64,000 nucleotides of DNA from Echinarachnius parma (taxonomy: Eukaryota > Echinodermata > Echinoidea > Clypeasteroida > Echinarachniidae), in contig JBAMJV010007414.1 in NCBI GenBank assembly GCA_037951105.1, positions 85,526 through 149,525 of the forward strand, given 5' to 3'. Shown piece after piece: positions 17,367 through 63,425 of the stretch (position 1 is its first letter; every line of letters begins with the position of its first letter). The translations under genes and the position numbers were made by a program. The notes beneath the pieces were generated by a model, which was not told the DNA's origin, did no database searches, and saw only the letters and a list, made by a program, of their open reading frames with translations.

Positions 17367-17983
17367 AAAACTTGTTTACTAGGAGAAAAATAAAATACAA
17401 TTGAGGCACCCGATACCTAGATACGTTCAGGTTATTAGAAGGAAAAACAACTGTTATACTCATAAAATACTTCTATATCCAACATATATATTTTAGAAGA
17501 AAAAAAATCATATTATTTACTTTTCACAGTGTGTGATTCCTAACCCAAACATTCTTAACCCTGCCTCGGCGGGAAGTAAAGCTCAAACAATCGATGCTAA
17601 ATGAATTCATGGGAGCATGAAAATTACACCACGAGACACTGCGCAGCATGCAGGTATATTGTCCTTGTACTATTCAAGGTTGCGCACCATCGTTTAATCA
17701 TACAGAATATTCACAGGGTCATACCTGTATAGGTAGAAAATCCATTTAGGAAGCATTTTCAAGTTCACAGTAAGAACATTTCATGAAGCACAAGGATACT
17801 GCATATATGTCTAGTTGGTGAATTAGACTTAGCAAGGAACTAAGCTAGCGGGGTTTTTAATGAATATGGGGGCCAGGTTCTCATACAAGTGATATTATAT
17901 TCATTTAAGATTTTTCCCAAAGTGATATTTGAGACTCCAATCATACCATTTTAAGATTCTTCTGAACGGTGTGCGACAGTTAA

Positions 17984-18055
17984 CCCATTCACTACAAGAT
18001 TCTGAAATCTCCATAGACTTTGTACACACCCCACCCGGTTCCCATAGTCAATGGG
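17984..18055. mobile_element. 72-bp TTAA mini-MITE
   Basis: Starts CCCATTCACTACAAGATTCT and ends with CCCATAGTCAATGGG, flanked by TTAA on both sides (17980-17983, 18056-18059). Other copies are at 15522-15593, 28845-28917 and 47860-47931; a split copy spans 27757-27790 plus 28050-28080. TTAA targets and CCC...GGG ends suggest piggyBac-type mobilisation. This copy is inserted into an older AGGG-ended repeat. Confidence 0.82.
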
Positions 18056-18214
18056 TTAACTAGAATAGAAACACTGTTTTCTAGTGGGGAAAAAAGGTGA
18101 AAATCTATGTCAGATTTTATTACCTACTGCCCATTGATACTGTACAATCAAAAATGTTTGGAGCACATTTCATTCAATCAAAAATATCTCGATGATTAGA
18201 GAGACATTAAAATA

Positions 18215-18440: not shown

Positions 18441-19116
18441 CTTGCTGGGAACACAAAACTGAAACTTGACAGTTGTTGACTAGACTCTGAACTTTCTACA
18501 GCTGAGTGAACACTTCAGCGCTATTTTCACTAATCATGGGCAATTCAGTTTGAGAAAATCTACAGTAGATATGGGTTGAAAACAGACAAGGGCTTGCGGC
18601 AATGGTAGACATACAGTTTCTGCAGTCTCAGCCACTTTACAGCCCCTTTAACAGAAGACAATCCTACACCTAACTAGCAGTGAAACAAATATGCACAGGG
18701 GCTCGTACCTATTTAGCCCCTGAAATGCCCAAATGAGTCCTGATAATGATGAAGGAGTCCCTCTTTATACTTTCTCAGAGAACAATCAAACTAAATTTAA
18801 GGTGCTGTTATAGTCAGGCAAGCTTGAAAGAAGCACTCGGAAATTAAATTTGATTTTTTCCCTACCTGTCAAGTATAACCATTCCTTTTTTGTATCTATC
18901 TGACAAAGTGTATGTATTTGCCTTTCACCAGAATACCAGGATATATGCCTTCCATGATATTGAGATCAAGTAATAATAATATCATGGGTAATAATAGCGC
19001 CAGGATTGTCACATCACGAAGGACATAACTGCGCTCTATAAGTGGCCATTATTATTATTTTTTAAGAGGACATGTACATACAAAAGCAAACATATATTCT
19101 TTAATAGCAGATAGAC

Positions 19117-19593
19117 CCCGTGTTCACACACACAAATTTCATCCCTATCATGACTAAAGAATCAGCAGCTGACTATAGCTATACGATGAAATTCGTGTGT
19201 CTGAACGCTGACTAACGAAACGACGTATCGTTAGTCACGACTAACGAAACACGGGTTTTATCGTTGTTTCGTACGAGAGCTAACTATAGAATCACGCTCT
19301 TTTCGTGTGTGAACAACAGTCGCTCGCTTAATCATGATTAGCTATACGACTCGTAACTAACTGGGCGTGGCTTAACGTGAACGTTCGCGCGAACAGGACA
19401 ACACACTGCGCAGTAGCAAACTGCGCACTTATTCGATGTTCGGTGCACCTGGAAGCCAGCTGTTGTGGAATCTTGGCTTTGTGTGTGAACGTAAGAGGTA
19501 GTTTGGTTTAATCATGACAAACGATACGTCGTATCATTAGTCATGATTCTTTAGTCATGATTAAGGGATGAAAATGTTTGTGTGTGAACACGC
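19117..19593. mobile_element. MITE absent from the paired duplicate
   Basis: CGTGTTCACACACACAAATT at the left mirrors TTTGTGTGTGAACACG at the right, followed inward by CATCCCT/AGGGATG. Copy B has an uninterrupted sequence at about 23312, so the insertion came after the duplication. Target duplication is not clear; superfamily not assigned. Confidence 0.85.
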
Positions 19594-19763
19594 TGAGAGA
19601 TAGGATACACTGGCATAGATCTGAGGAAAGTTCTTTTACATGTATGTGGAGGTGGGGATGAGTGCATACTAGTAGATCATCCCACCTGAGCAAAAGGTAT
19701 CACAAATTTACAGATCTACGCCAGTCCAGTGGATCATTGACCAACAATAAAATAAAGGGTTAA

Positions 19764-20318
19764 AGGGAAAGTTGAGTTTTGGTAGAGAGGGCGCTAGACT
19801 ACTTAATTGGTTTGTGAGGTAATGAAAAACTGAGTGTAAAATTTGAAAGAGCATAATATTTAAACAATAAAATCATCTTTGTTTGATCAAAATCGGTTCA
19901 GAAACGGCTGAAATATCCATAAATATAACAATTTGTAATAAACCCGGGGCCCCGGGTTTATTAGAGAATTTTGAACCAGCCGTTAAAAATTCAAAAAAAT
20001 GCTTCCTCTTTTCAAAAAGTTACAAAATAGGTATTTCAATAGTTGTTGGTTATTTCTCTATCTAATCACTATTTCAACAAAGCATCACATGCACAATATT
20101 TTATTCAAAATGGTTAAAACCGATGAGTGTTTAGAGAGCGCCCTCTTACGTTTTAACGGCTCTTTTTGAATGATAACATGATCTTTACGACGTCATTTGT
20201 AATTTTGTGTTCCTTTCTAGTTATAACTATTAGTTTGTAATGTAATGATGCAGGTTTTGGTTACTAAAATTCAGTTTCACTAAAACTGTACTCTCCTTAC
20301 CAGAACTCAACTATCCCT
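19764..20318. mobile_element. TTAA-target MITE family 1, copy 1
   Basis: 555 bp, ends AGGGAAAGTTGAGTTTTGG and CCAGAACTCAACTATCCCT, TTAA on both sides (19760-19763, 20319-20322). Copy B shows a single TTAA at 23838-23841. Other copies are 29595-30141 and 62923-63425, with an end fragment at 62153-62177. No ORF of note. Confidence 0.93.
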
Positions 20319-20780
20319 TTAAAGGAAGTTTGGCAATATCAATAACTTCCCTTCTGGTAACAATGGGTATACTTAGCTAATTATTGCTGTGTGTGTAGTA
20401 CAAGCAGATAAAATGTTATTGCACTTATCTGCTAGTACTGGGGCATGTAATGTTGAACTTACATCTATAATTAATTTTAAGTCATAATAATTCTCAATAT
20501 ATTATTTATAATGTTTGTTTGTTCTTGTCTGTTTTATGGTGGACCGGGCAACACATGTCACTTGTGTCAATATTTCTCAAGTGATCATTTTCTGTATGGT
20601 ACGTCACTTTTTATATTAGATATCGTCTGTACAATGAGTAAACATCCCAGCTAGATGTCAAATAGTCTTTTATCAAATGCAAACAGCAAACTAGATACAT
20701 TGCTACTACCATACGTGACCGGCTATAGCAAAACCCTGCACTTGTCGGTAAAAATCAAAATGGAGATTTTCATACCATTA

Positions 20781-21217
20781 GGCCCCAAAAAAAAAATTGT
20801 TTGATTGGCGTAACGGGCAACCAAAAATTAGGGTAGGTCGGTCGGGATTTTTAAATTTATTTTTTAATATGAAGATATGCATGCTGGCCCTGGCCGGCGG
20901 CATAAACATTGTACATGCATGCGCTGCATAGGTACCGCGTATACGTACATTGCATGTACTGTATACAATATTCGCGCCTTCATCGCCTCGCGGGGAAAAA
21001 GCGATATCGCAACACTTCCGGGTTTTTAGTGCAGCAAATATATCGATCGCAAATGCAGCGCGATACTCAGGCGATAGCAATTTTTTCGCTTCGATATGCT
21101 TCGATATACACAACGATACATAACGATATTGATCGCAATCGGCAAAAACCTCTAGGGTCGGCGGTATTTTTAGGGACGGGCGGGTTACGCCAATCCAACA
21201 ATTTATTTTTTTTGGCC
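20781..21217. mobile_element. PIF/Harbinger-like MITE
   Basis: Ends GGCCCCAAAAAAAA...TTGATTGGCGTAACGGGC-type mirrored by GGTTACGCCAATCCAACAA...GGCC. Flanked by TTA (20778-20780, 21218-21220), and copy B has one uninterrupted ATTAGAAAGG. A 3-bp TTA duplication is the PIF/Harbinger habit. A 178-codon minus-strand frame across it is not a gene. Confidence 0.83.
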
Positions 21218-21428
21218 TTAGAAAGGCCTCATCAAAAACTTTCATTTGATGCTTTGTTCTAATTGGCGAAGATACAAGTCTTTTACACACATTATGTGAA
21301 CTTAAATTGCCCATTTCTTCAAAACATGACTTACCGACAAGTGCAGGGTTTTGCTATCTAGTCGGTCACATATACTGTCAACAGGATGGCTGTCCAAGGT
21401 GAACGTCCTTTACAGTCAAACCTGTCTT

Positions 21429-21740
21429 AGTGGCCACCTGATATATTTAGCAGCCAGCCTGCTTATAGTGGCCACCTGATATATTTAGCAGCCAACCTGC
21501 TTATAGTGGCCACCTGATATATTTAGCAGTCAACCTGCTTATAGTGGCCACCTGATATATTTAGCAGCCAACCTGCTTATAGTGGCCACCTGATATATTT
21601 AGCAGCCAACCTGCTTATAGTGGCCACCTGATATATTTAGCAGCCAACCTGCTTATAGTGGCCACCTGATATATTTAGCAGCCAACCTGCTTATAGTGGC
21701 CACCTGATATATTTAGCAGCTAACCTGCTTATAGAGGCCA
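21429..21740 (+). repeat. 38-bp minisatellite, about 8 copies
   Basis: The unit begins AGTGGCCACCTGATATATTT and continues AGCAGCCAACCTGCTTAT. The paired duplicate (about 24500-24555) has only one to two units. Confidence 0.93.
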
Positions 21741-21909
21741 CCAAATGTATGTGATCCCCTGCAGATAAAAGCTGTGTTATGGAACCTGTATACAGATGTC
21801 ACCTGTCTACAGTTGCCACTATTGATTCCTTCAGGCGGTCACTATGACAGGTTTGACTGTACATGTTCATATGCACAATTTTGCTGATAACACTAATAAT
21901 TAACTTTAA

Positions 21910-22550
21910 AGGGATCTGGTTTCTATGTTGACATGACAAAAGATTGGTAAATTGTGTTTTTCTGTGATCTAATATGTCCACTGAGTGATCAGTGATGTAT
22001 GAAAATTGAATGTAAAATGAGCGTTATATGGCCGAGTAATGAGCAAACTGCAAAGTGCTATTTACACACTGAATATTGTGTATTGTGTTTGTAGATATGA
22101 TTATTACTTGACACACCAATGTATATAATGTCTCCATAAACAATTGTATCCTTCATCCAAAGTCATTCACCCTAACCCTTTCCGGTAAACCCCATTGACT
22201 GATATGTTTTGTAAACAATTCCTCTCTGTGAAATCCCTTGTACAGTGTATGATATGTTATTTAGAGTTAGAGTGAGATATTACGAATGAAGCAACACTTG
22301 CTACTTCGACTCCAAGCAAAGCAGTCTTGTCCATTCCTTGCTCCTGAGTCTAGTATACTTTACATACACAAAACCAAGGATTTTTTTCTCTTCAAATTAA
22401 ATCATAAATATCTCAATAACAAATAGAGAGAAGAAGAAAAATTGATTTCATACTTCTGATAGTAAGAGGAAAACAACCAGGCATGAAAGAAGAACTAGTG
22501 ATGCAATTAGTGAGTTTTGTTGATTCAGCCATAAAAAGTTACTAGATCCC
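21910..22550. mobile_element. TTAA-target MITE family 2, copy in duplicate A
   Basis: Starts AGGGATCTGGTTTC after TTAA (21906-21909) and ends AAAAGTTACTAGATCCC before TTAA (22551-22554), which it shares with the next element. Interior matches 27274-27661 (GGCC.AGTAATGAGC.AA). Copy B retains only the right end. Confidence 0.75.
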
Positions 22551-22554
22551 TTAA

Positions 22555-22927
22555 AGGTGCACCTGTAAAGTGTCAGATATTGCCCAAAATGAAATTTGAG
22601 ACTTCAATCCTGTACCAAAATCATTGTAAGATATGTCCGAATGATGTGTGAAAGTTTCATTGAAAAAGAACACTGCTTTCCTGGTTAAAAAAGCGAAAAT
22701 ATGCATCAGCTTTTACAACGAATTACTGTATGACGTGTATGAGGTTTATGACCGTTCATTAACGCTCTTGAGCTGAATGATAGATATCGTTATACTAAAG
22801 GGGCATTTAAAAAAAATCTAACCCTATTTTATTCTTCTATTACCATTTAGCTAAAGAACACACTTAGAAGAGAAACGAGGAAGCTCCAAGTAATTTTCGT
22901 GGAGTTAGACACTTTACAGGCATCCCT
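22555..22927. mobile_element. TTAA-target MITE family 3
   Basis: Starts AGGTGCACCTGTAAAGTGTC and ends GACACTTTACAGGCATCCCT. Flanks are TTAA (22551-22554) and TTCA (22928-22931). Copy B has a single TTAA at 24636-24639, so the right flank is a mutated TTAA. A second copy is 36343-36934. Confidence 0.88.
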
Positions 22928-23362
22928 TTCAAGTGTTGATGAGATGCTTACATGTTATAATGTGTCAGTGTTTTCTGTGAAGCTTATTGTGTTGTGTTTG
23001 GTTGAATTCCATGTGAAAGTACACAAAGCTTTAATTTGGCTTTTACAATGAGCTTTTACAACGAATTACTGTATGACGTGTATGAGGTTTATGACCGTTC
23101 ATTAACGCTCTAGAGCTGAATGATAGATATCGTTATACTAAAGGGGCATTTAAAAAAATCTAACCCTATTTTATTTAAGGTGCTGTTATAGATCATGGGT
23201 AATAATAGCGCCAGGATTGTCACATCGCGAAGGACATCACTGCGTTCTATAAGTGGCCATTATTATTATTTTTAAGAGGACAGTTGTATACAAAAGCAAA
23301 CATATATTCTTTAATGGCAGATCGAGATAAGATACACTGGCATAGATCTGAGGAAAGTCTTT

Positions 23363-23497
23363 AACATAATAATAATAATATACTCGATTTATATAGCGCC
23401 TATCAAGATTGATAATCATCTCTAAGCGCTTTACAATGATATTATAACCCCAATCATCAGATGCATTCTGCAATCAATCCAGCACACAAGGTGCACG
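23363..23497. repeat. 'TATATAGCGCC' repeat inserted in duplicate B
   Basis: An AAT microsatellite, then TTTATATAGCGCCTATCAAG and CTAAGCGCTTTACAATG. Absent from copy A. This motif pair is a familiar dispersed repeat in marine invertebrate genomes. Confidence 0.7.
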
Positions 23498-23552
23498 TAT
23501 ACTATGGAGGTGGGGATGAGTGAATACTGGTAGATCATCCCACCTGAGTAAT

Positions 23553-23767
23553 GCCCGGCGCAGACAGAGCCGAATCGACCAGATCCGACTGGTTTTCAGC
23601 CTGATTAACTCAGTACGTGCTGCCTCAGGACTCCGGTTTTTCCAGTCAAGTGCCAGTCGGAATTCATTCAAGGCCGATTCAACATGTTGGATCGGTTCCG
23701 ACTGAGCGAAACTGACTCTAGCCTGACTGAAAACCAGTCGGATCGGGGCGATCTGTCTGCGCCGGGC
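23553..23767. mobile_element. 215-bp MITE specific to duplicate B
   Basis: GCCCGGCGCAGACAG / CTGTCTGCGCCGGGC with further complementarity through GATCCGACTGGTTTTCAG. Copy A has CCTGAGCAAAAGGTATCAC without it. The target duplication is not clear. Confidence 0.85.
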
Positions 23768-25414
23768 TTTAGAGGTATCACAAATTTACAGATCTACGCC
23801 ACTCCAGTGGATCATTGACCAACAATAAAATAAAGGGTTAAAGGAAGTTTGGCAATATCAGCAACTTCCCTTCTGGTAACAATGGGTATACACTTTGCTA
23901 ATTATTGCTGTGTGTGTAGTACAAACAGATAAAATGTTATTGCACTTTATCTGCTAGTACTGGGGCATGTAATGTTGAACTTACATCTATAATTAATTTT
24001 AAGTCATAATAATACTCAATATATTATAATGTTTGTTTTTTCTTGTCTGTTTTATGGTGGACCGGGGGCAACACGTGTCACTTGTGTCAATATTTCTCAA
24101 GTGATCATTATCTGTATGGTACGTCACTTTTTATATTAGATATTGTCTGTACAATGGGTAAACATCCCAGCTAGATGTCAAATAGTCTTTTATCAAATGC
24201 AAACAGCAAACTAGATACATTGCTACTACCATATGTGACCGGCTATAGAAAAAACCCTGCACTTGTCGGTAAAAATCAAAATGGAGATTTGTTTTATACC
24301 ATTAGAAAGGCCTCATCAAAAGCTTTCATTTGCTGCTTTGTTCTAACAAATTGGTCAATAATTGGCGAAGATATGATTGTATCAATTTTACAATCATAAG
24401 TCTTTTACACACATTATGTGAACTTAAATTGCCAATTTCTTCAAAATGTGAATTACCGACTGAAGTGCCTTGAAGGTCCTTTACAGTCAAACCTGTCTAA
24501 TAGTGTCGACCTGATATATATAGCAGCCAACCTGCTTATAGTGGCCACCAAATGTATGTGATCCCCGGCAGATAAAAGCTGTGTTATGTAACCTGTACAT
24601 ACATATATTTAGCCATAAAAAGTTACTAGATCCCTTTAAAGTGTTGACGAGATGCTTACATGTTATAATGTGTCAAGTGTTTTCTGCAAAGCTTATTGTG
24701 TTGTGTTTGGTTGAATTCCATGTGAAAGTACACAAAGCTTTAATTGGGCTTTTATAATGAGCATGATGTGATATGCCTTAGATATTGCACAAATATTTGT
24801 ATAATTTAATTTTTAATTAATATTGCCCCATGTATGCATATGAAAGAGATTTTATCATTTGAAGAAAGGTCCCGCTATATGCACAACATCACATTGCATG
24901 GAGGTCTCTTATCTACCGTGACCACTGTTACTATTTCCCCCTAGGTAGGTAATCACTATGTTTGACTAAATGTCTGTTATTTATCAAGTTAATTTTGACT
25001 AAAAAAACAACATTCTCACTCAGAAATGTGTATCCCTCATTTAGAAACTGGGTCAACATTTATAAACATCAATTGTCAAGTTGTTTTCAATATTTCTTTG
25101 GGTTTTCTGTACATTTCTGAGCCAGACATGGTTGGTTCGGGCTATCTATTTCCGGAGTAATCAGGATTTGTTTTGCAGGTAGCACATTTGCTTTTAATTA
25201 TCAGTGAGATAGATAATACAAAATTGATAAGATTCGCTGTTCAAATGCCATGCCAATGTTAAGGAGTATGTTTATCAGTTAATAATCAAATAAAATGGTA
25301 ACAATTACATACATTGTGAGTATCTTGTCATACAGTGCAGTAGGCAAGAACATGCCTGACATTGATTCAGATTCTATACTAAACCCCTATAAATGTTCTG
25401 CAAATCAAGCTTAA

Positions 25415-25884
25415 AGATGAATTCCAGTTTTGGGAAAGAAGCCGAATACATAATATATTGATCATTATTATTGAATAAGTATTGAAATAGGGCTTGTGTG
25501 GTAAAATCAGAACCTAAGCATCGTTAAATACAGAAATATCGGAAGAAATCCAATATCCGCCTGTGAAATTTATAAATCCACCGCCAGTTCGGACCTGTCC
25601 ACGCCGCTAGCGCTGGGGGAGATATCGACAAGCCCGTATATAGCGAACACCTCGTGTACTCGCACGTGGCCATTGTACGTAGCGTATGGGCGATTCCGAG
25701 TTGGCGATCTCTATCTGCAGCAGATCAAGTTATAATTTTGCAAATATATCAATTAGTAGGCGGTTTCTTGGCCAAATTTGGATAATCCTATATTAGTACA
25801 ATTATATTCTTTCACATTATTGGTAATAAGAGCTTCCATTTCATTTTTTTGAGAGGGGGGCGTTTCCAAAACTGGCCTTTACCT
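25415..25884. mobile_element. TTAA-target MITE family 4
   Basis: 470 bp between TTAA 25411-25414 and 25885-25888. Ends are AGATGAATTCCAGTTTTGGG and CCAAAACTGGCCTTTACCT. A diverged copy at about 54217-54708 shares GAACCTAAGCATCGTTAAAT and AATTAGTAGGCGGTTTC. Confidence 0.85.
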
Positions 25885-25924
25885 TTAAGCATTCATATCT
25901 CTCTTAACCCTATATTATCTTACA

Positions 25925-26285
25925 TGAATTTGGTATCATTGAAAAGCCTGTTTATTCCCCTTTACATTGATTCCCCATTTGAAATGGTTATAATGCAATT
26001 ATGAAATATATGCATTACACCTGAATATGGGGCCAAGTCATATTGCAAAATGTATTGTTATTGCATAACAGTCTCAATATTATTCATAACACAGCCCATT
26101 TTCAGATGAATGGAGAATTCACACTGAAAATGATGTTATATTTTGCAACATTTCACTTTTGACATGGCTCCACATTCAGGTCTACTGAGCATTCCACAAT
26201 TCTATAATCATTACAAATGAAATGTACATGTATCAATGTAAAGGGGAATACACAGGCTTGTCAATTATATCAAATTCAGGTAGGA
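25925..26285. repeat. Long foldback (inverted) repeat
   Basis: Arms of roughly 150 bp: AAGCCTGTTTATTCCCCTTT on the left mirrors AAAGGGGAATACACAGGCTT on the right, and CCTGAATATGGGGCCA mirrors TGGCTCCACATTCAGG. Confidence 0.85.
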
Positions 26286-27273
26286 TCAATTAATAACGAT
26301 AGATATTAACACTAAAACTTAAATTGCAGAACTTTTTGATAGGTTTATTTTCTAATGCAGTATATAAGGATATCGGTTTTGCATTTATAAAACATTCTTT
26401 CAAATGTAGAGTACTTTTAAAAATTAGATCACACGCCCTGTTTTTATTCAAGAACTGATATTTGTCCCCATGAAAGAAGAATTAACTGTGCCCATCTAAT
26501 TTTTATTGGGGTTTCGTTCCATATAACAGTAATAAACCATTTATAAGTCACCCAACCAACTGTATAAAACCAACTGTTAATTGACTGGCTCAATTGAACC
26601 AGCTATAAAACAAAATGGTGGCATCTGATGGCAAAAACAGAAAACATTACATCTATGGATCTGTCCTGTACAATAGAATTTCAAATCCTTACAAAAAAGA
26701 AGGTATTATTATTATCAACTTTATCTCTATAGGGTTAGAATTGTATGTTTTCAGCTATCTTTACAAGGGTGAGCGTTCGACCCACAAATTATTTACTAAC
26801 AACTTGCCCAACTAATAATCTCGTCCCACCAATAATCACAGACATTTATTAAATGCAAAAAAAATGATGTTGAAAAGATACCATATTATACGTTGGGGAA
26901 AAGCAACAATGCCAAAAAGAAACATATGTTATAAAGTATTATTAAAAATGCATGAAGTTATGAGTAAACCAGGTAACACTAAATGGGAATTAAGAATTGA
27001 AAATATCTTGTAAGAGGTAGCCTGATACAGCCATGATACAATGATACAAATATTCAGAATAGAATAGAAAAGGAAATATGCATATATGAGAATTAGACTA
27101 CAAAGCAATAGTTTTTCCTCTTTCACTGTGAACTTTCAAATTTCTCCAAAGATGTACATAGTTTTATTGATATTCATTGTATGTTTAACTGAACTTGAAG
27201 ATGCATGCAGAAGGATGACAATACTTAAAAGTAAAGTTAATACAGTCGAACATAGATAGTTCCCACCTATTAA

Positions 27274-27661
27274 AGGGATCTAGTAACTTTGTTGAGATGT
27301 GCAAAAACTGATGAATGGTTGATGCAATGTATACTGTTGTTATCTCATATGTCCTCAGGGTATTGTGTGAAAATTTCAGGTCAAATGGACAATGTATGGC
27401 CAAGTAATGAGCGAAAATGCAAAGTGATATTGGGTGATATTCACCAACTCACTGCATTCACTTTGTACAGGGATGAAAATCTCGCCCGGAGATTTTCTTA
27501 TCTAAATACTTCAATCATACATATCTTTGTAATGAAAGGGAAATTTGAAAAACCGAAAGCTGTCCCATGATTTTATTGTTAATACGAATACAACAAGGTA
27601 TAAAGGAACCGCTAGAATTACAATTTTATTTTGAGGATTTGGACAATGTTACTAAGTCCCT
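27274..27661. mobile_element. TTAA-target MITE family 2, full copy
   Basis: 388 bp, AGGGATCTAGTAACTTTG to GGACAATGTTACTAAGTCCCT, flanked by TTAA (27270-27273, 27662-27665). A 53-kb copy keeps the left end. Confidence 0.9.
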
Positions 27662-28277
27662 TTAAAGGGAATGAGAATAGTGACCATCGTAGATAGGTGA
27701 CTTATATCTAGTCAGGTTCCATAACATACAAAATGCAATGCACAGGATCTCTTTAACCTGTTGCTTACAGGAACCGGGTTAGGGTGGACCAATCGGGCAA
27801 GCAGATTTTCAAACCGACATTGACAAAATTAGAAAAATCGTGTTTTATTCCGTGTAATGCTTCATCTACAATCACAGGTTTGATCAGGAAATGGTGATAT
27901 TTTGAATAGTAAAAACTTTAGGCTACTCAGGAGATAACATTTTTCAGGCCAGTAAATCTTTCTAGTATTGGGCTACCAGAAAAGGGGAAGAAATTATTAC
28001 ACTGGCCCGACCGGGCAACCGACACAAAAAGTAAGTGTGGAGCCCTGCTATGGGGATTTCAGAATCTCGTAGTGAATGGGTTTACTGGCCAGGATGGCTG
28101 CTATAGGTGGCATCTAAACATGTTGGACAGTGTGTATTCATTTTTATTTTTTTACATCTCGTAGGCAAGCTTTTATCTCAGATTTTTCTGTGGTACCATG
28201 AATATCCTGACACCTTTATTTGCCAATTTGAGAAGATTTGTTCATTTCAATAAGGATTGGAGCCTGAACTATCTAAT

Positions 28278-28342
28278 ATTGTCCGATATATTTCTGTAGA
28301 GAAATATATCGGACAATCTCCTCCTTTTGTTCAAAGGAGGAG
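28278..28342. repeat. Two adjacent perfect hairpins
   Basis: Stem one is 18 bp with a GTAG loop (28278-28295 with 28300-28317). Stem two is 10 bp with a TGTTC loop (28318-28327 with 28333-28342). They are directly abutted. The right half (GTTCAAAGGAGGAGATTGCC) recurs at about 28795. Confidence 0.85.
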
Positions 28343-28844
28343 ATTGCCCTTCACCAGATGGTATTCACTTAAATCTAGATGCATGAAGAAATATAAAGGG
28401 GGAGTATCTACAAAACTCAGGACTGTATTCTATGAGTATTTATCAGATAATCATCAAATCCTCAGATTGTTATGAAGAAGTTGAATGGAGAAAGTACAAA
28501 CTGGCATATTGACAACAATTTGATTCAGGTCTGACAGGCCCTAGAGTTGATTAATACATTGATACTGATAGTACTTTGTAAAGCTTTAATAACTTTATGG
28601 AAAATTTATGAGCGAAAATTTATAAAAAGAATTCTTTAGTTGATGACCTTTTGTCTCATCTGAATCCCTCCTGATGAAAAGAAATTCAGACAACAACAAT
28701 GACATCAACACCCATCAAAAGTATTTTGTTAACAATGACTTTAATAATTGTATGGAAAACGAGCAGAGGCATGGATTTTTGAAAGAATTCTTTTGTTCAA
28801 AGGAGGAGATTGCCCTTCATCTCATTCTCATCCATCCTGATTAA

Positions 28845-28917
28845 CCCCTTGACTCCGGGAACAGGGTGGGCTATGTTCAAAGTCTATGGGGATTTCAGAA
28901 TCTCAAAAGGGAAGGGG
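28845..28917. mobile_element. TTAA mini-MITE, inverted copy
   Basis: Same family as 17984-18055 in the other orientation; left flank TTAA (28841-28844), right flank TTGA. Confidence 0.75.
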
Positions 28918-29594
28918 TTGAAAGAAATTCTGATAAAAACCACATCAACACTCATCAAAAGGTTCTTTTAGGTTCAACGCTTAACAATTTAAGTTTATGT
29001 GGTGTACGTGCGGTAAACTTTATTTAAAGACTGCTAGAAAAGGCTCAAGTAATCAAATGTAAGTCACATGGAGCAGAGCTTTCGGAACTAGCAAATCCGT
29101 TATCTAGGCAAAATTAACTTTAAATATGAAAGACGAAATTACCAGGAAAAGTATTATTTACACTGAATTGTATCAAAGGGAATAAAGTCCAGATACACAG
29201 CAATTGTGTTACAAATTGAAGAACATGTTCTTGAAATAGGAAAATCTTGCAGTTGACCAGAGTGACGGACACATATGTGCGGTAATATAAATCTTGACAA
29301 TGGCCATCATAAAAAACACATTATTGTCTATCTCTATTTTTTAATTAAATTATGCAAAAATGCAGATTATTTGGATAACTGGAAGCAAATAACGCTCATT
29401 TGAAAGACAAATTAAAAGTACTGTCACACAGAATTTTAATTTAAAAAACACTAATATTCATGCTACATTTAGTATTTCCGGTATTTGTCCTGATCTCATT
29501 TAGAGACTCCATCCGGATATATATCACAACATCCGTTTCAACTTGGGTATAATTAGAATTAATTAATCAGAACTTGATTTGACCTTGGTCTTAA
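28918..29594. other. Intron sequence, nothing recognised
   Basis: AT-rich, no supported gene, repeat or hairpin. Confidence 0.55.
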
Positions 29595-30141
29595 AGGGAT
29601 AGTTGAGTTCTGGTAAGGAGAGTACAGTTTTGGTGAAACTGAATTTTAGTAACCAAAACCTGCATCATTTCATTACAAACTAATATTTATAACTAGAAAG
29701 GAACACAAAATTACAAATGACGTAGTAAAGATCATGTTATCATTCAAAAAGAGCCGTCGTAAGAGGGCGCTCTCTAAACACATCGGTTTCAACCATTTTG
29801 AATAAAATATTGTGCATGTGATGTTTTGTTGAAATAGTGATTAGATAGAGAAATAACCAACAACTATTTAAATACCTATTTTGTAACTTTTTGAAAAGAG
29901 GAAGCATTTAAAAAAAAATTTAACGGCTGGTTCGAAATTCTCTAATAAACCTGGGGCCCCAGCTTTATTACAAATTGTTATATTTATGGATATTTCAGCC
30001 GTCTCTGAACCGATTTTGATCAAACAAAGATGATTTTATTATTTAAATATTATGCTCTTTCAAATTTTATACTCAGTTTTTAATTACCTCACAAAAAAAT
30101 AAGTAGTCTAGCGCCCTCTCTACCAAAACTCAACTATCCCT
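29595..30141. mobile_element. TTAA-target MITE family 1, copy 2 (inverted)
   Basis: 547 bp, AGGGATAGTTGAGTTCTGG to CCAAAACTCAACTATCCCT, flanked by TTAA at 29591-29594 and 30142-30145. Reverse orientation relative to copy 1. Confidence 0.92.
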
Positions 30142-30145
30142 TTAA

Positions 30146-33100
30146 CTATTGTATATGATGAAGGAAACATAATCTGTAATATCAGTAATTGGACAAAGAA
30201 AGCATGCAACCAACTTGAGAAAAAAATACATGGGGGCTCTGCCCCCTCGGGACAAATTTTCCCATTGAAATGCCAAAAACAGCCCCTGAAAGGACTACAT
30301 ATTTGTGAGAAGCGCTTTATTTGAGGAAGTATTCCAAGATAATTCACAAGTCACGACACAAGTAAATAGCTTGAACTGGAGAGGAATCCTTTCAATAATA
30401 ACATACATCATCACTATTGACAGTCAATACAGGAATTAATTTTTTATTTTAGGGGGCTACTTTTCCAATCTGATGGATATCCAGACATTTTTCACATAAT
30501 ACCCTATAAAAGGTAATTTTAGGGGCTACGTACCGATTTCAGGAGGCTATTTTGAAAATTAGGGGGCAAAATCACCCTCAGCCTCTGTATATTTCCTAGC
30601 CTCTTGACAGTTGACTCTGATCCTAATGATCTGACTTAGGGAAACCTAATAGCAAGTCATTAAAATCTTCTGCATCAGTTTTTGTCAAACTATATCCAAT
30701 AGAAGTGAACAAAACACTGAAGGAAGCCCCCAAGGACCAAAAGACATACCTAATTACTGATTAGGTTAGTTTTACCTTGTGGCCTAAACCTTTCGATCGA
30801 TATATGACAATTAGAAGAATCCTTAATTTCAACAATTATTCTTGGACCTGAAATTGACCTTGTTGGTCAGAAGAATTAAAATAAGTGAGCCATTTAACAG
30901 CATAATATATTGCAAGCTCTTCTTTTAAAGCAACCGATACCCGGTCTACAAAAGCACCAACAGTATGTTTAGCATGCGGATGTGGATGGCATCCCGGTTA
31001 GATTCTACCCCCTCTCTCTCTCTCTGTTTGGAGTAGCATCCAGATAACGTCTGGGTGACTTTTAACCCATTCAGGACTGGTCCCCGACAATATTCAGGCT
31101 AGGATCAATGAAGAATACATGTTATAGCAAAAACAATCAGTCCTGGGCTGGGGAGTGTTGCAAAGAGTTACGATTAATCACAATTACAATCTGATTGGCT
31201 ATAATGAACATATTTTCTGATTTGCGCTTAATCGCACCTTTGCGATTGATTGCAACTCTTTATGCAACACCCCAGGTCCAGCCAGGGTAGTTTCTATACA
31301 TCGTCCTGAGCCTGTTGAGAGGGTTTCAGGGAAATCCCACCCAGGTCATAATCCTCAGTATGACCTACTGGACTGGTCATAGATATAAAGCACTTGTTCA
31401 AAACCAAAAACCTGGAAAATCCTGAACTTATCATTCCTTGTTTTTTGAAGTGTAATCACTCGGCCATTTACATGTCTGTAGCAAGTACTAAGCTGAGTAA
31501 AATCCCTATCTCACAATAAGACTTTAAAACTAACAGACCGAAAAATTATTTGATTTTATCCTTGCACAATTCAATCTTCTTAACACTAAATTTAAAACTG
31601 ATTCCAGAATCATGATATCGGCTACCAAAATCTTAGTCTGGTCAATAACCTTCGGGTATAAAGTGTGTTGCAAGCTGGCGGAAAAATAGTGGCAAGCTTA
31701 ATAGGCAATCTTTGCTGAGACGGTGTGCGCGCAACAGTTTTTAAGCATGGCATTAGCGTGAAGTTAGTGAACAGGTATATTTCGCAAGCTTAATTTCAGC
31801 AGAGATCGCTTTAAAAGCTAGCCGCAAGCTAGCTGCTAGATTGCAACACACTTTCTGTTGGGGGACTGAACCCAATATTCATAAATTCAAAGTTTTGTTA
31901 CCTTTCATCCTTTATCCTTTAATTATGGTATTTTCTTGCAAATTACAAAGAAATGAACACGCACATATCTCCCATATATGATAATAAATTAACAATAAAT
32001 ACTGACAAGTAAATCATGACCTACATGTATGTGTTACTACTTGGCTGAGACAACTTACAGTAACATTTGTATGCATGTCTACTCGTGAAAGGAATATAGA
32101 TTTGGCAAGGGAGGAAATTAACTCAAGACAGTGCCAACAAAGTTTTATAAAATTTGCTTTCTTTCAAGTAAATTTGTTTGAAGTAATTCCAATATGGCTG
32201 CATATACATATATACAAATAAATCAGTTCAAAATATCTAAAAATAACTGTAATTTGTGGTTTAGTTTGGGTTGTAATGAAGAGTACCAATGTTCAACCCC
32301 ATTTATTTCCTGAAAATTGTTCAAGACTTCAAATACAGTCCTGAGGAAAACTAAATGATGATATTTAAGTATGAATTGATAGTATGGTGAACAAAATCAT
32401 GTGTTCATTTTACAAGATTAAGGCAAAATCCAAGATTTGGGTTTTATGCAAAGCTTGTCCGACTTGAGTTACAATTGCTAGGACGTGGGGGTATGACTTC
32501 ACATGTCTCATCAATACCAATTACTGAACCATCATATTTCTGCTGTAAAAATAATTCATAATTTTCAGAATAATTTTGTATTATTGCTAAGCTTAAAAAT
32601 TGGAATGGCCAACCAGTCAAGGAGTTATCCAAAGAAAAAATGCAACACCACTGAAAATATAATGAAGATTGATCTCATGCCTGACTGAATAAACAATTTT
32701 ATATTTCATATAGGTTGGGGTCACTCAATTTTTTAGGCATTACAAATAAAACACTAATTCTATTTTCCAGAGCAGGCAAAATATATACATTGGGCCAAGT
32801 ACATTAAATAATTAAGCTAATAGCTAGCGCTAATAGCTAGTTAATTACTAAAGTATTAAATTGCATGCAATCAATACATTTTTAATATGTGTACACTTAT
32901 AGTATATGCTCTAATGGATGTAGCTATTCAAAATACAGAATGGAATTTTAAAAAACACATTTTTTTATAACTATTATTTTAATTCTAAGTAATGAACCTC
33001 AATATATAATCTCATTCATATAGTGGACCATGAACTATAAAGGTACTGCTTAAGTTAGACTCAAGGGTTACAAAAAGTGGTCCTAGTATGTATGTACTGA

Positions 33101-33171
33101 TCTGTCTGATTTCTTATACAGTCTAGTCAAACCTGCCTAATAAACAAATACCACCAGTCTTTACAGACAAA
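30146..33171. other. Intron sequence, few repeats
   Basis: Holds the 31150-31273 MITE and a dispersed fragment (31070-31135) that matches 3700-3770 inverted. Otherwise nothing coding is seen. Confidence 0.55.
31150..31273. mobile_element. 'GTGTTGC..AAGAGTT' MITE, copy 1
   Basis: GGGGAGTGTTGCAAAGAGTT mirrored by AACTCTTTATGCAACACCCC. A longer copy is 33172-33348, and a decayed one lies at about 16840-16990. Confidence 0.85.
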
Positions 33172-33348
33172 GGGGGTGTTGCATAAAGAGTTTTGATTAA
33201 TCGCAAAGTTACGTTTGATCGCAAATATGTCGCAAGTCGGTAAATACGCGCATTGGAGCTAATCAGATTTGCGCATTTAGGTGCATTTTCTGACTTGCTA
33301 TTAAACGCAACTTTGCGATGAATCGCAACTCTTTATGCAACACCCCCC
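33172..33348. mobile_element. 'GTGTTGC..AAGAGTT' MITE, copy 2
   Basis: GGGGGTGTTGCATAAAGAGT mirrored by ACTCTTTATGCAACACCCCC, with GATTAATCGCAA / TTGCGATGAATC inside. Confidence 0.88.
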
Positions 33349-33460
33349 AATACTCAGATTCCCTTGAAACCATGCAGTTTGCATGTTAATGAACCTGTCT
33401 ATTGAGACTACCTAATCATAAAGACCACAAGTCTTTTTTGTCTTCCTTGGGTGGTCTTAA

Positions 33461-34872
33461 AGGGGACCACCAGGCAAAGAACAACACATAATTATAAGTT
33501 TTGGTACCCTTTTGTGATATCAAATATACTCCGCAAAAAAAGAAACTGGACACTTGTATAAGTTGAAATATTTTATATTAATGTACGATAAAGTGTACAT
33601 GATCATATATCAAATTAATGGGAATTTAGTCCTCTACATGCAGGGTATAAATTAAAGGTGTAATCGTTCATGCATGAAATGCCATAGTCAATTAACAATA
33701 GCAAGGTCTGTTTTCAAAAATAGCAAAACAATGGAGGACCACACCATTCGACTGAAATGATACTAAGCGTTTCATTTAAAACAAGGTGTGCTGGGCAAGT
33801 AAATTATGACATTATTCAACTTTATTGTTATGAACAAACTCTGGAAATACAAATTTGTCAATAAAACAAGGTCAGGTTATGAGAGCATTATCATACTGAT
33901 CTGTATTAGAGGCATGAAGCTTGTCTACTTCATGTGTCCCCTGCAATTTTAACCATATTTACCTAGAGAAATGTCATGTTAAAGACTGCCCAACTGTTTG
34001 ACCAAGGGTGACTTCAGGTTTTGAAGATCTTTGGACTACGGTAGAATTCTTGAGAAGAATTTATACCATTTTCATGCTGAAATAAGGGCACAAACTGTGG
34101 TTTTGACTAATAAAGCTTTGCCATGGAATTCCCCATTTTGTTACTTGTCGATGAAAATAACACCTATAACGTTCACAATTTGTCTTCACTTATACTCTTT
34201 ATTGAGATGAAGATAGAAAAGGTCACATTTGTAATGAAAAATTATGCCATCTCATGAATATAGCGTTTTGGATTATGCTTATCAACATTTATATGGTTGA
34301 GTGGATGTTCCATTTTTGCTATTTTTGAAAACAGACCTTGGTGTGGTTAATTGACCATGACTAGTCATGCATGAATGATTTCATTTGGATTTTATACGAA
34401 TATTGAAGAGGGTAGTTTTATCTTTAATTTGATATACAATATCATATATTTTATCGTTAATGAATATGAAATATTTGGTCTCATACAAGTGTCCAGTTTC
34501 TTTTTTTGCGGAGTATAGATACCCAACATTTTGCAAAGGGTTGTGTAATTCATAAACAATGCAATTCATTACCACCACTTACGGAACCACTATTATTTCC
34601 TGGTTCCGTACTCACCAAACATTTGCGAGTGCGCCAATTAGATATTCACGCATACGTTTGGAGACAATAGAATCCCGGACGATTCGTTCGCTCTGCACAA
34701 AGGTAGTCTTCGTGCATGCAGACCCATATACACATTGTGTAGTATGGTGATGCGTTCTTCCAATTATATTTTTTTCTTTTCTGGAAACATATTTTTCTGA
34801 ACTTGTTGATGGAATGGACTACTAAAGATGTTACCTTTCATTTATAAGAATGCTATTTGTGGGTGGTACCCT
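33461..34872. mobile_element. TTAA-target MITE family 5 with a nested mariner-like MITE
   Basis: AGGGGACCACCAGGCAAAG at the left, GTGGGTGGTACCCT at the right, TTAA at 33457-33460 and 34873-34876. It is interrupted by a TA-flanked element (33527-34515). A second copy near 55225-56075 has a different insertion at a different site. Confidence 0.8.
33527..34515. mobile_element. Tc1/mariner-like MITE, long inverted ends
   Basis: TACTCCGCAAAAAAAGAAAC extended to a 33-bp perfect inverted repeat, then patchy complementarity well into the interior. Flanked by TA (33525-33526, 34516-34517). No transposase. Confidence 0.92.
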
Positions 34873-34982
34873 TTAAAAGACAAGTCTGACTGATTCCTAA
34901 CAATGGAGTCAGTTCTAATTAGTAAAGTTTAATAGCATAATCTTTGACAAATTGACTCTAGATTTCTATATAACTTTGTACA

Positions 34983-35310
34983 GTAAAATAATGTAAGGAG
35001 GCTAAAGAGGCATTTGATGACACACGCAGTACCCCGGGGTACCGTTGTACCCCGGTATCCCGCGTTGTGTAGCGCCATCTTGCGTCCAACCGTACCGCAG
35101 CTATTGCGTTGTGCATGCAGTGCAGCGCGCGATTGTATGCACGCTATACCCACAGTACAGCCCTAAAAAATTAAATAAATAATTAAACAAAATGGCGGAT
35201 TTTCGTCTGGTACCCCAGGGTACCGTTTATGTCATCATTTTCTCAAGGATCTTTTGTCTCCTACAGGGCTCCAGAGAAATTGTATTATTAGCCTCCTTAT
35301 TTCACTTTAC
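34983..35310. mobile_element. Foldback MITE with GGTACC-rich core
   Basis: GTAAAATAATGTAAGGAGGC mirrored by GCCTCCTTATTTCACTTTAC; inner arms GTACCCCGGGGTACC and GGTACCCCAGGGTACC. Confidence 0.82.
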
Positions 35311-36078
35311 CATTAGAACTCCATCATGTGGACATCAAATACTTTGTGCAGATTATGTAGTCACTGTCTAGACACTTATATTATAGGTAACTCAGTTGTA
35401 TATTCATTTTAACATACAATAATAATGTTCCGTCTTTCGACGCTAATACATTATTCAAGGTTTAAATCGCATGTATAACACGTGATAGTGTATTCACGTT
35501 TGTACATTTAGTAAGGTTGCTTGATTTGCTTCTATTTGAGGTCACACATGGATGCATACTTTGTAGAAGTTTGCAGCAAGCTTTTTTATCTAAAAGTATA
35601 CAAAACATGTTGACAAAAGTTGTACATTGTATGTAGATAAAGCATGAAGGAATCCTATAGATTCATATTGTGTTCAATTCAGATTAGCTGTACAATGTTC
35701 ATGTGTGTCAGTTACAGGTAATGCATAGCTGCCAACATTTGGAATTTTAAATTAGTAACATTTTTAAGCAAAACTGAACATCATGTGCGCGAAGCGCACA
35801 TCACGAGCGCGAAGACCCTTTAGCCGGGGTCTAGGGCTAGCTTTAGGGCCCTGGAGCGTCGAGCGTGAAGCGCAGAGTCCATTGCGGCCGGCGTCCATGG
35901 CCCTATTTTTCATCATTTTTGCACAATTACTAGGTATGATTTGGTCAGATTTACGTTTAAACGTTGTCTCTATACGTTTAAGAACGTGAAAACGAAAAAA
36001 AAATCGATTGATGCCTTCACATTGTTGGCATTTTGCAAAATTTCAATTTACCAAAATGTGATTCAGGGGCAAATACTA
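35311..36078. other. Intron sequence with a GCGCGAAGCGC motif
   Basis: GTGCGCGAAGCGCACATCAC (35783) starts a GC-rich patch to about 35900 of unknown nature; the rest is unremarkable. Confidence 0.5.
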
Positions 36079-36082
36079 TTAA

Positions 36083-36338
36083 CTCTTTACCCGCCGTATT
36101 CGACTATATAGTTACACACAGCGGAGCTCTTCGTTCGACTTTAGTCACAAACATAGCGGGCATTGTGTGCATGCGCGCCACACAATATACGATGCGTGTG
36201 GCGCACGCGTGCGTGCGTGATGTTGCGTGCATGATGTGCGACCGTAATGCTAGCCGCCTAGGGTGTCGGCGCCAGAGTATGGGTACACTGTTGAAATAAT
36301 CTGGCCACGTGGGATCTACTGCACGGCGCAAAAAAGTG
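36083..36338. mobile_element. TTAA-flanked element with CTCTTT/..AAAGTG ends
   Basis: 256 bp, CTCTTTACCCGCCG... to ...CACGGCGCAAAAAAGTG, TTAA on both sides (36079-36082, 36339-36342). GC- and CpG-richer than its surroundings. Confidence 0.65.
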
Positions 36339-36342
36339 TTAA

Positions 36343-36934
36343 AGTGATGCCTGTAAAGTGTCAGATATTGCACAAAATGACATTTGAGACTTCAATCCTA
36401 TATCAATATCATTGTAAAATACAATTGAAAGATTTGTGAAAGTTTGAAAGAAAACGAACACTGTTTACCTAGTGAAAGATTTGTGAAAGTTTGAAAGAAA
36501 ACGAACACTGTTTACCTAGTGAAAAAAACGAATATTGAGTTAATATTTTATCACCGAATACTGATGGTCTGCCATACTTTTGTCGCAGTAATGAATGATC
36601 CGTTTGAGATATTCGCACCCGTGTATTTTTACACACGTAGTACATAATTCATGGAATTTGAACTCGCTCGGCTCAAAGTTCAATCTCCGGAATGTTCTCA
36701 CGGGTGCTGCATGCGGACGTTCTCAGCGAAGACAATTGTACTTTTTTTCAATTGCGTTGATTAACGCTTTAGAAATAATGATTTTCAATGATAATTATCT
36801 TCATACTAAAGGGACATTTGAAAAATCAAACCCTATTTTATTCTTCTCTTACTATAAGCTAAACAACACGGTAGAAGAGAAACGAGGAAGCTCCAAGTAA
36901 TTTTCGTGGATTTGGACACTTTACAGGTATGACT
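36343..36934. mobile_element. TTAA-target MITE family 3, second copy
   Basis: 592 bp, AGTGATGCCTGTAAAGTGTC to GACACTTTACAGGTATGACT, TTAA at 36339-36342 and 36935-36938. The left TTAA is shared with another TTAA-flanked element (36083-36338). Confidence 0.9.
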
Positions 36935-39230: not shown

Positions 39231-39339
39231 TTAAGTTTCTAATAACCATTATAACCTACGTGTGGTGCATAATAGAAGGATTAAACAAGAACTTACCTGT
39301 TTGCAGTTTGATCCTTATTTTATGAGTAACGGGAGGTAA

Positions 39340-39379
39340 GAGACTAAATGAGATCCCGTCCGCGCATGTGCAGTCAATT
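39340..39379. repeat. DIRS inverted terminal repeat (40 bp), partner at 44247-44286
   Basis: The segment starting GAGACTAAATGAGATCCCGT is repeated inverted and identical at 44247-44286. Confidence 0.9.
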
Positions 39380-39486
39380 TCCAAAGCCCAAACGTGACTC
39401 CTGATGAGTTTCGTGCATAGATGCACAATAAATACAACATAATGACTTTGAGATAATTTCCTGATGAGTAGGGAGGGAGAGGAGGG

Positions 39487-53364: not shown

Positions 53365-53710
53365 AAGGGATCTAGTAACTTTGTTGACATGTGGAAAAGT
53401 GATGAGTGGTTGATACAATGTTTATTATTGTTATCTGATATGTCCACAAGGTGTTGTGTGAAAATTTCAAGTTAAATGGATGTTATATGGCCACCGAGTA
53501 ATGAGCAAAAAAGCAAAGTGATATTCACTAACTCATTGCACTCACTTTGTACACGGTTTTCGCAGTCAGGTGGATAATTTAACATCTGAACACTTCAATC
53601 GAAAAATATATTTTTAACGAAAGGGAAATTTGAAAAACCGAAACCTGTCCCATGCTTTTATTAATATGAATACACTAAGGTATGAGGGAACTGCTAGAAT
53701 TTCAATTGGA
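53365..53710. mobile_element. TTAA-target MITE family 2, copy lacking its right end
   Basis: After TTAA (53361-53364) it runs AAGGGATCTAGTAACTTTG and follows 27274-27600, including GGGAAATTTGAAAAACCGAA; the right terminus is lost. Confidence 0.75.
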
Positions 53711-54216
53711 TTATTTATTATTATATTTTGTATTGGTCGTGTGATTTGTTTGCTGTTTTGACAAAAATGCTTTGGTAATCAAAACTATTTATAACAAGTT
53801 CAATTCAAAAAGCTCTAAGCTTTAAAGGTAAAAATCATGAATTAAAACAAGTACGACAAAATCAATTTTTTTTTTTTAAATTGTGATTTTGTTTATCCTA
53901 AACGCGATTTTTTTAAAATAATTAATTTGTTCAGCCTCCACACTAACTTGTTTTTCGCTAACTAGATGTTCTGATCGGGATAGTAAAATCATACATTTTT
54001 CAATCTTACTTGCCCAAACAGAAAATGTTCTTCCCCTATAACTTTTAGATGAGATTTAAACATTTAGGATTTACAGTTTTCACTTGTATTTCATCCATTT
54101 AGCTGTCCATTGGCAACTGGGCAACCAAACTAGATTATTTATGTAGTTTTATTTGCCCTGGGCAAGTGGGCAAGAGCTAGTGTCAATTATTTAGCTTTAC
54201 TTGAAAGATTTTGGAG

Positions 54217-54708
54217 TATTTTAAAGCCAAATAACAGTTTCGGGAAAGTTATCGAAAACATCTATATTGGCCAAACTAATTGATCAATATTGTTGAATAA
54301 GTATTTAAAAAGTGTTTTGTGTGGTAAAATCCGAACCTAAGCATCGTTAAATGCAGAAATATCGGAAGAAATACAATGGCCACCAATGAAATTTATAAAT
54401 CCAATGCCCATTTGCACCTGTCCGCGCCGCTAGCGCTGGGCTGTAGATCAATACGCCTGCATTACCGGAGACCACGAGGAGACAATTCAGAGGTCTTTTG
54501 CACGTAGCGTATGCGCGATTCCGCGTTGCCGGTACGATTTGCAGTAAATCAGTTTTATAATTTTTCAAATAAATATCAATTAGTAGGCGGTTTCCTGGCC
54601 AAATTTGTATAATCCCATATAGTAAAATTGTATTCTTTCACATGGTTGGAAATAAGAGCATACATTTCATTTTGTGTGCGTGGGGCGTTTCCCACTACCG
54701 TCATTTAC
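54217..54708. mobile_element. TTAA-target MITE family 4, diverged copy
   Basis: Matches 25415-25884 over most of its length; right flank TTTTAAG kept, left terminus eroded. Confidence 0.78.
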
Positions 54709-55256
54709 TTTTAAGCATAATTGGAGGGCATATGTATCACAATTTATCTATTTTGAAATAGTTTTAACATGGATATGTCTATGTCTAACTCTATGGAGGT
54801 GATTTAAGTTGGTGATTAAAATTGTTTTTTTAAATGAGGCGATTTCAATCATGATTTGAATCAAAGCGATTTAAATCGCGTCAACCCTGGATCTGATTAC
54901 AAACATTCTTTGGAAAATTTGATGCTCTTACAAATATTTGGTTTGCGGTTGCACCATGTAAGAAGGGAGGATTGGAGAGTTCTGGAAAGGACTGTTTGTA
55001 GTTCTTTTTAGAAAATTCTACCAAGAGGATAATAAATGTCTGGAAAACGAAGCTTATATCCAGTTATCCCATGATAAGTGACCTGGCCCTGGCTCCTTTG
55101 TTCACATGACAATCCAATGTCATGTGGTAACTGTCAACAAAGGGCACCTTCCTAATCTTCACTCGATCAGACCAAGGAGTTGATCAGACTAAGTAGCAGT
55201 TTAATGCCTGGATTAGCAAAGTAAAGGGGACCACCAGGCAAAGAACAACACAGTTA

Positions 55257-62922: not shown

Positions 62923-63425
62923 AGGAGTAGTACAGTTTTGGTAAGGCTGAACTTTAGTAACCAAAACCTGCACAGTAACATTACAAACTAATATTTATAA
63001 CCCCACCATGCTCGAAAGGTATACAAAAATACAAACGACTAAGTAAAAAGTCTGTTATCATTCAAAAGGCGCCATTAAAATACAAGAGGGCGCTCTCTAA
63101 TAAGAATTGGTTTCAACCATTTTTCATATAAAATTATGCATATGATGTTTTGTTGAAATAGAGAGATCATCAACAACTATTTAAAAACCGCTTTTGAACA
63201 TTTTGGAAAAAGTGTTTTTTTCAAAAAATCATCGTATTTATTTGGGGCCCAAATAAATACGATCGGATATATTTATTGATATTTCAGCCATTTCTGAACC
63301 GATTTTGACCAAATAAAGTTTATTCTGCCATTAAAATTGCACGTTCTTTCAAATTCGACACTCAGTTTTTCATTACGTCACGAAAAAATTGTGTTGTGCA
63401 GCGCCCTCTCTACCAAAACTGAACC
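62923..63425. mobile_element. TTAA-target MITE family 1, diverged copy 3
   Basis: 503 bp flanked by TTAA (62919-62922, 63426-63429). The interior shares GTAACCAAAACCTGCA and GAGGGCGCTCTCTAA with the other copies, but the ends are decayed. Confidence 0.82.

Follow-up and report, generated by a model that had tools for sequence, protein, structure and literature searches.

Five miniature element families at TTAA sites of Echinarachnius parma are very probably non-autonomous Kolobok elements of the T2-MITE kind

A 64,000-nucleotide stretch of the Echinarachnius parma genome (contig JBAMJV010007414.1 of assembly GCA_037951105.1, positions 85,526 to 149,525 of the forward strand; hereafter the window) harbors five families of miniature inverted-repeat transposable elements (MITEs), denoted F1 to F5, that lie in TTAA and share purine-rich ends with the consensus AGGG. 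We conclude that F1 to F5 are very probably non-autonomous members of the Kolobok superfamily, of the kind described as T2-MITEs. The evidence for the superfamily assignment is strong, and the shared end is real but is already explained by the known Kolobok signature. An earlier note on this DNA had ascribed the common AGGG end to one unusual, piggyBac-like transposase lineage; a shared kind of transposase survives from that proposal, while the unusual lineage becomes unneeded, as TTAA followed by two purines (RR) is the Kolobok signature. A seemingly unusual piggyBac-like end is thereby moved into a known superfamily, and RR versus CC beside TTAA tells Kolobok from piggyBac by eye.

Reading of the insertions and comparison of their ends located all five families, in 11 copies, near the coordinates previously given for them, with the second F4 copy starting at 54225 rather than 54217. 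The elements are as follows.

19764..20318, + strand: F1a, a 555-bp MITE, TTAA-flanked, ends AGGGAAAGTTGAG and AGGGATAGTTGAG
29595..30141, - strand: F1b, a 547-bp MITE, TTAA-flanked, AGGGATAGTTGAG at both ends
62923..63425, - strand: F1c, an older F1 copy, TTAA-flanked, ends AGGAGTAG and GGTTCAG
21910..22550, + strand: F2a, a 641-bp copy, left end AGGGATCTGG, right end GGGATCTAGT (short by one base)
27274..27661, + strand: F2b, a 388-bp MITE, TTAA-flanked, ends AGGGATCTAG and AGGGACTTAG
53365..53720, + strand: F2c, left end TTAA-AAGGGATCTAG, right end lost, boundary approximate
22555..22927, + strand: F3a, a 373-bp MITE, ends AGGTGCACCTG and AGGGATGCCTG, right TTAA decayed to TTCA
36343..36934, + strand: F3b, a 592-bp MITE, TTAA-flanked, ends AGTGATGCCTG and AGTCATACCTG
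25415..25884, + strand: F4a, a 470-bp MITE, TTAA-flanked, ends AGATGAATTCCAGTTTTGG and AGGTAAAGGCCAGTTTTGG
54225..54710, + strand: F4b, an F4 copy, 77% identical, TTAA-flanked, ends AGCCAAATAAC and AAGTAAATGAC
33461..34872, + strand: F5, a 1412-bp foldback-like element, TTAA-flanked, ends AGGGGACCACC and AGGGTACCACC

These elements are short, lack coding capacity (none of the 29 window frames of at least 110 residues falls inside the 11 elements), have inverted ends and occur in many similar copies, as is characteristic of MITEs. F1a is 99% identical to another copy in the assembly (L021) and ≈73% identical to F1c by BLAST, and F5 matches itself in reverse complement at 62% over positions 65 to 1057.

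Mobility by insertion into TTAA is demonstrated by two paralogous empty sites, found by self-BLAST and alignment of the window.

23773..23925, + strand: paralogous empty site of F1a, the same flanks with a single TTAA at 23838-23841
24595..24710, + strand: paralogous empty site of F3a, the F2 right end, a single TTAA, then the same flank

The stretch at 19.7 to 20.4 kb is duplicated at 23.8 kb minus F1a, with the alignment running through one TTAA, and the stretch at 22.5 to 23.0 kb is duplicated at 24.6 kb minus F3a, where the alignment again passes through one TTAA and has a gap of one base next to it. Both sites are supplied by a local segmental duplication that pairs 18981-23053 (in pieces) with 23192-24762 at 92 to 96% identity. 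F3a has inserted into the TTAA bordering F2a on its right, and two F2 copies in inverted order elsewhere in the assembly (L014) have one TTAA in common, so that adjoining elements represent simply insertion into an available TTAA. In the same region, 129 bp from inside F3a (22705-22833) recur ≈220 bp downstream (23048-23175) with 97.7% identity, in a flank that is apparently uninterrupted in the 24.7-kb paralogue; as this repeat has no TTAA ends, it looks like templated filler rather than a product of transposition.

To describe the ends, we counted 21 readable termini in the 11 copies, since the lost right end of F2c was left out, and compared them with every TTAA context of the window, 1006 over the two strands including those at the element ends. 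Twenty of the 21 ends retain TTAA unchanged; the exception is the right end of F3a, which reads TTCA on the + strand. All 21 begin with two purines (313 of the 1006 contexts do so), 17 with AG (82 contexts), 13 with AGG (31 contexts), 10 with AGGG (16 contexts) and six with AGGGAT; GGGAT shifted by one base is found at two further ends, F2a right and F2c left, and no end begins with C. The strict motif AGGRR occurs at 10 ends and in four of the five families (F1, F2, F3 and F5), with none in F4. When all 256 TTAA+NNNN words were ranked by z against 40 dinucleotide shuffles of the window, TTAAAGGG came first (16 occurrences versus a mean of 3.7, z 8.1), with the second-ranked word at z 3.5, and nine of its 16 sites are ends of the elements named above. 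The F4 ends read AGAT, AGGT, AGCC and AAGT, and those of F3b AGTG and AGTC; AGGG is thus a consensus and not an invariant sequence, and is weakest in F4 and F3b. The claim that these elements start directly after TTAA is borne out, the further statement that nearly all start with AGG holds for 13 ends only, and AGGGAT, put forward as the majority start, is confined to six; the shared end was therefore described correctly in kind and overstated in degree. Close to the far end of the window, two consecutive AGGG ends are found at 62140-62173 (TTAAAGGGATAGTTGAG... and then TTAAAGGGACTGTCC), where a solo F1 end adjoins a possible end of another family.

Kolobok elements create TTAA duplications and carry 5'-RR and YY-3' ends (Y, pyrimidine), in which they differ from piggyBac (PMC9587614), the ends of which generally carry CC[C/T]T (PMC2872659). 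T2-MITEs of Xenopus, of which 16 major subfamilies are described in X. tropicalis, combine a TTAA target with terminal AGGRR and are presumably non-autonomous Kolobok elements, and all ten full-length XKol elements have AG ends (PMC6004289). F1 to F5 have the TTAA duplication, as judged from the intact flanks and the two single-TTAA empty sites, and RR...YY termini at every readable end; the same genome encodes transposases with THAP and DDE domains and a DxxH motif, with putative catalytic residues (see below). F1 to F5 resemble T2-MITEs in the TTAA target, in part in the terminal AGGRR, and in the many subfamilies with that end and the presence of some recently active copies, and differ from them in their subterminal repeats and in having strict AGGRR at fewer than half of the ends. 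With Kolobok-1_XT and XKol, they share TTAA duplication and AG/RR ends, together with the THAP and DDE domains of the candidate transposases of this genome, but F1 to F5 themselves carry no transposase. The piggyBac MITEs of corals (CMITEs, PMC2872659) are alike in TTAA duplication and short inverted ends and unlike in their CC[C/T]T termini. The rule given in the earlier note, that piggyBac ends usually read CCC, agrees with that paper, and a CCC-ended family is indeed present in the window, with a complete TTAA-to-TTAA copy carrying a 72-bp insert at 17980-18059 and diverged relatives at 15518, 28841 and 47856; this rule implies that the AGGG families are not piggyBac elements. Among the open-access papers listed, we found no description of F1 to F5, a search that did not extend to subscription journals or Repbase.

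In mechanistic terms, a Kolobok transposase made in trans would bind the terminal and subterminal repeats, excise the element and insert it at a new TTAA. As we propose, the outermost bases would then be common to families that differ internally because these bases abut the cleavage and target site.

The interiors of the five families were said to be unrelated, and this describes most of them, since most family pairs have no similarity in a whole-element comparison; F2 and F3, though, have ≈140 bp in common, with F2b 237-379 aligning with F3b 442-582 at 66% over 143 bp (E 1.2e-12). In the subterminal region (nucleotides 5 to 24), F1 and F4 match in register at 12 to 13 of 20 bases and have AGTTTTGG at nucleotides 12 to 19, whereas other family pairs match at zero to nine; random TTAA-flanking pairs average 5.6 and reach 12 or more with P 0.004 per pair. 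This test was chosen after the motif had been seen and spans ten family pairs, and thus its result is suggestive only.

We gauged the abundance of these families in the full assembly (1.2 Gb in 14,790 contigs) with the pattern TTAAAGGGATN{0,4}AGT, which was derived from F1 and F2 and which therefore reports their abundance rather than convergence of all families. It has 88,273 exact matches (44,228 forward and 44,045 reverse), versus 374 (193 + 181) for the reversed pattern used as a control. Twenty stretches chosen from the listing of matches were fetched, of which 17 carry a TTAA-flanked pair of AGGG ends (L015, L019 and L022 do not); in 13 of these 17, the pair spans ≈550 bp (F1) or 358 to 388 bp (F2). 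Among 11 F1 copies compared, six are mutually 95 to 99% identical, which points to recent movement, and L003, L004 and L007 stand at 84 to 89%; the outliers are F1c (76 to 80%) and L005, which is ≈50% identical to all others and is misoriented or divergent. In viral_contigs, single exact 19-base matches (L001 and L002) among 2.9 million contigs were taken as chance. Two of the fetched stretches (L019 29-184 and L020 1687-1841) hold a further TTAA-flanked family of 155 to 156 bp with ends GTATTGGCTGAGATATGCC, which are neither CC nor RR.

Kolobok-type transposase genes are well represented in the assembly. A THAP profile search (PF05485) gave at least 150 matches (all of the 150 scored among 257 candidates), and PF20700 gave 32 matches from 44 candidates. 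Many of the THAP matches belong to one repeated 1425-bp element, TTAA-flanked with ends AGGAGACGTCC and AGGGGACGTCC (AGGAGACG/AGGGGACG), that carries a THAP exon and ends in AGGRG. By our own reading, its THAP frame closes at a TGA inside an apparent splice donor. Among the 40 scored of 2477 candidates in a search with this element, 38 are full length, the query included, with the other 37 at 94 to 99% identity; the element looks like a Kolobok deletion derivative that retains the THAP exon. Two PF20700 matches, P0002 (contig C1477) and P0003 (C3050), are 41% identical and both keep GDGRCDSPG, ATDRH, DVWH (DxxH) and EVYH, motifs that, as far as sequence can tell, are consistent with the DDE and DxxH residues described for Kolobok. 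In both cases a same-strand THAP frame precedes the gene, by ≈6.1 kb (P0002) and ≈7.6 kb (P0003); L056, one of the copies of the 1425-bp element, has a THAP domain with 42% identity over 86 residues to the frame upstream of P0002.

A protein search of the assembly with P0002 as query (62 scored of 14,159 candidates) uncovered a homogeneous family in which at least seven loci have the same 57%-identical, equal-scoring match in a 715-residue open frame; on six of those seven contigs, an equal-scoring THAP exon lies 5.3 kb upstream. Five of six aligned THAP loci of this family begin TTAA followed by AGCAAACCAAAATG (AGCAAACC), with differing flanks, and L042 lacks that end. We read this seven-copy family, from its frames and ends, as Kolobok of the autonomous type, its 5' end being TTAA/AG. 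Furthermore, L029 and L032 have a THAP exon in common and begin TTAA followed by AGGTATAG and AGGAGGGC, respectively (both AGG), with homology starting at the TTAA; on the L032 contig, a catalytic exon 38% identical to the P0002 query lies downstream. Three THAP-bearing families therefore begin with AG directly after TTAA.

A tandem array of 4.5- to 4.8-kb units with PF20700 transposases is found in L063 (G000:C9873:20500-28500) and at G000:C174:301860-331354, with frames of 693 residues in most units (E 6.6e-48 for the one scanned). L063 holds two transposase frames and, between them on the other strand, a 156-residue His-Me finger nuclease frame (PF05551, E 2.6e-12; HNH_3, E 3.9e-8). KolobokP elements are described as combining a transposase with a His-Me finger nuclease and as forming multimers (PMC9587614), and the L063 array fits these multimers; joining PF20700 to such a nuclease, it supports the reading of PF20700 as Kolobok.

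Other THAP frames were set aside. The 655-residue frame of L053 is not taken as Kolobok, as it has HTH_Tnp_4 and DDE_Tnp_4 and no convincing spanning TTAA pair (the best TTAA inverted pair matches at 10 of 14 bases and is A/T-rich); we presume it to be PHIS/IS4EU-like. In L055 a frame that is L053-like by eye occurs twice, the copies lying 5.36 kb from each other, and L058 holds a further THAP frame without matching ends.

Several results weigh against the Kolobok reading of F1 to F5. The window contains no THAP-like C2CH motif in six frames and no transposase in the 10 of its 29 frames of at least 110 residues that were scanned against Pfam; those frames returned reverse transcriptase or tyrosine recombinase, weak family matches, or no domain at all. 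In the 14.5 and 17.5 kb fetched for P0002 and P0003, the genes lie within no TTAA/RR inverted pair, and C1477 and C3050 were accordingly rejected as source elements with ends, their Kolobok-type proteins being perhaps domesticated or old. For the seven-copy family and L029/L032, the reading covered one end, so that both are candidate rather than demonstrated complete elements. In a search that was not exhaustive, no autonomous element clearly matching the F1 to F5 ends was found, and the ends of the seven-copy family match the 21 termini at just 3 to 10 of 24 bases, where unrelated AG contexts average 8.

The comparison just cited set the THAP-bearing families against all 21 ends over 24 bases (105 comparisons), with 66 unrelated AG-starting window contexts as a control. 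The best values are 14 of 24 for L029 versus F1 ends (including nine of the first 12; L032 reaches 12 of 24) and 14 of 24 for the right end of the 1425-bp element versus the left end of F5. For L029 as for the right end of the 1425-bp element, one of the 66 control contexts scores 14 as well, which, given 105 comparisons, makes both pairings leads and not matches.

Within the Kolobok assignment, the question becomes how many lineages moved these families. We lean slightly toward each MITE family having its own Kolobok lineage, with AGGG as a superfamily signature only and no cross-mobilization. The THAP-bearing families agree no further than their second or third base (AGCAAACC; AGGTATAG and AGGAGGGC; AGGRGACG), the in-register subterminal matches between families other than F1/F4 range around the random mean, and the best end matches pair L029 with F1 and the 1425-bp element with F5, as would be expected of separate partners. 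The F1/F4 similarity with its AGTTTTGG box, post hoc as it is, and the core sequence common to F2 and F3 speak against separate lineages. A more tentative proposal, which we regard as possible and rather less probable, is that one Kolobok lineage recognizes AGGGAT plus a subterminal box near nucleotides 12 to 19 and has mobilized several unrelated MITE families (F1 and F4 at least) to tens of thousands of copies, with the L029-type family as the nearest candidate. A single cross-mobilizing transposase is unproven because no autonomous element clearly matching the F1 to F5 ends was found.

That F1 to F5 instead belong to a divergent piggyBac lineage whose MITEs have AGGG in place of CCC ends and are moved by a piggyBac transposase, we consider very improbable. 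piggyBac elements likewise duplicate TTAA, and the CCC-ended TTAA family in the window makes past activity of a piggyBac enzyme in this genome possible; however, none of the 21 F1 to F5 ends starts with C, whereas piggyBac ends generally carry CC[C/T]T (PMC2872659), RR ends are what is said to set Kolobok apart from piggyBac (PMC9587614), and TTAACCCT and TTAACCCA reach z 1.7 and 1.8 in the window versus 8.1 for TTAAAGGG. A piggyBac origin was set aside on the ends alone, and no assembly search with the piggyBac transposase family was made. Least credible of all is a TA duplication, or PIF/Harbinger- or mariner-like elements with TTAA partly element sequence. In its favor, TA duplication would make the ends read AAGGG and leave them symmetric. 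Against it, a single TTAA is left in both empty sites, TTAA stays intact at nearly every end next to an outer base that varies, and the two filled and empty pairs have the whole TTAA in common at targets that differ in context; a three-base duplication would, by our reasoning, give asymmetric ends.

One assembly holds tens of thousands of MITE end-pattern matches and a homogeneous multi-copy transposase family, together with deletion derivatives that keep a THAP exon and a tandem array resembling KolobokP, and this genome is a rich case for the relation of MITE families to Kolobok transposases.

Finally, the window contains repeats of other kinds. In a retroelement at 39775-44135 (- strand), a reverse transcriptase matching PF00078 (E 1.6e-21) is combined with a frame for a tyrosine recombinase matching PF00589 (E 8.3e-13), which makes the element DIRS-like. 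Reverse transcriptase frames in two pieces at 58474-59384 (- strand; PF00078, E 1.6e-22 and 2.5e-6) represent a remnant resembling a long interspersed nuclear element. A tandem array with a period of ≈156 bp and copies ≈97% identical occupies 46046-47435, and a 91-bp inverted repeat at 39271-39566 (95% complementary, 114-bp loop) has non-AGGG ends and is a foldback of another kind.

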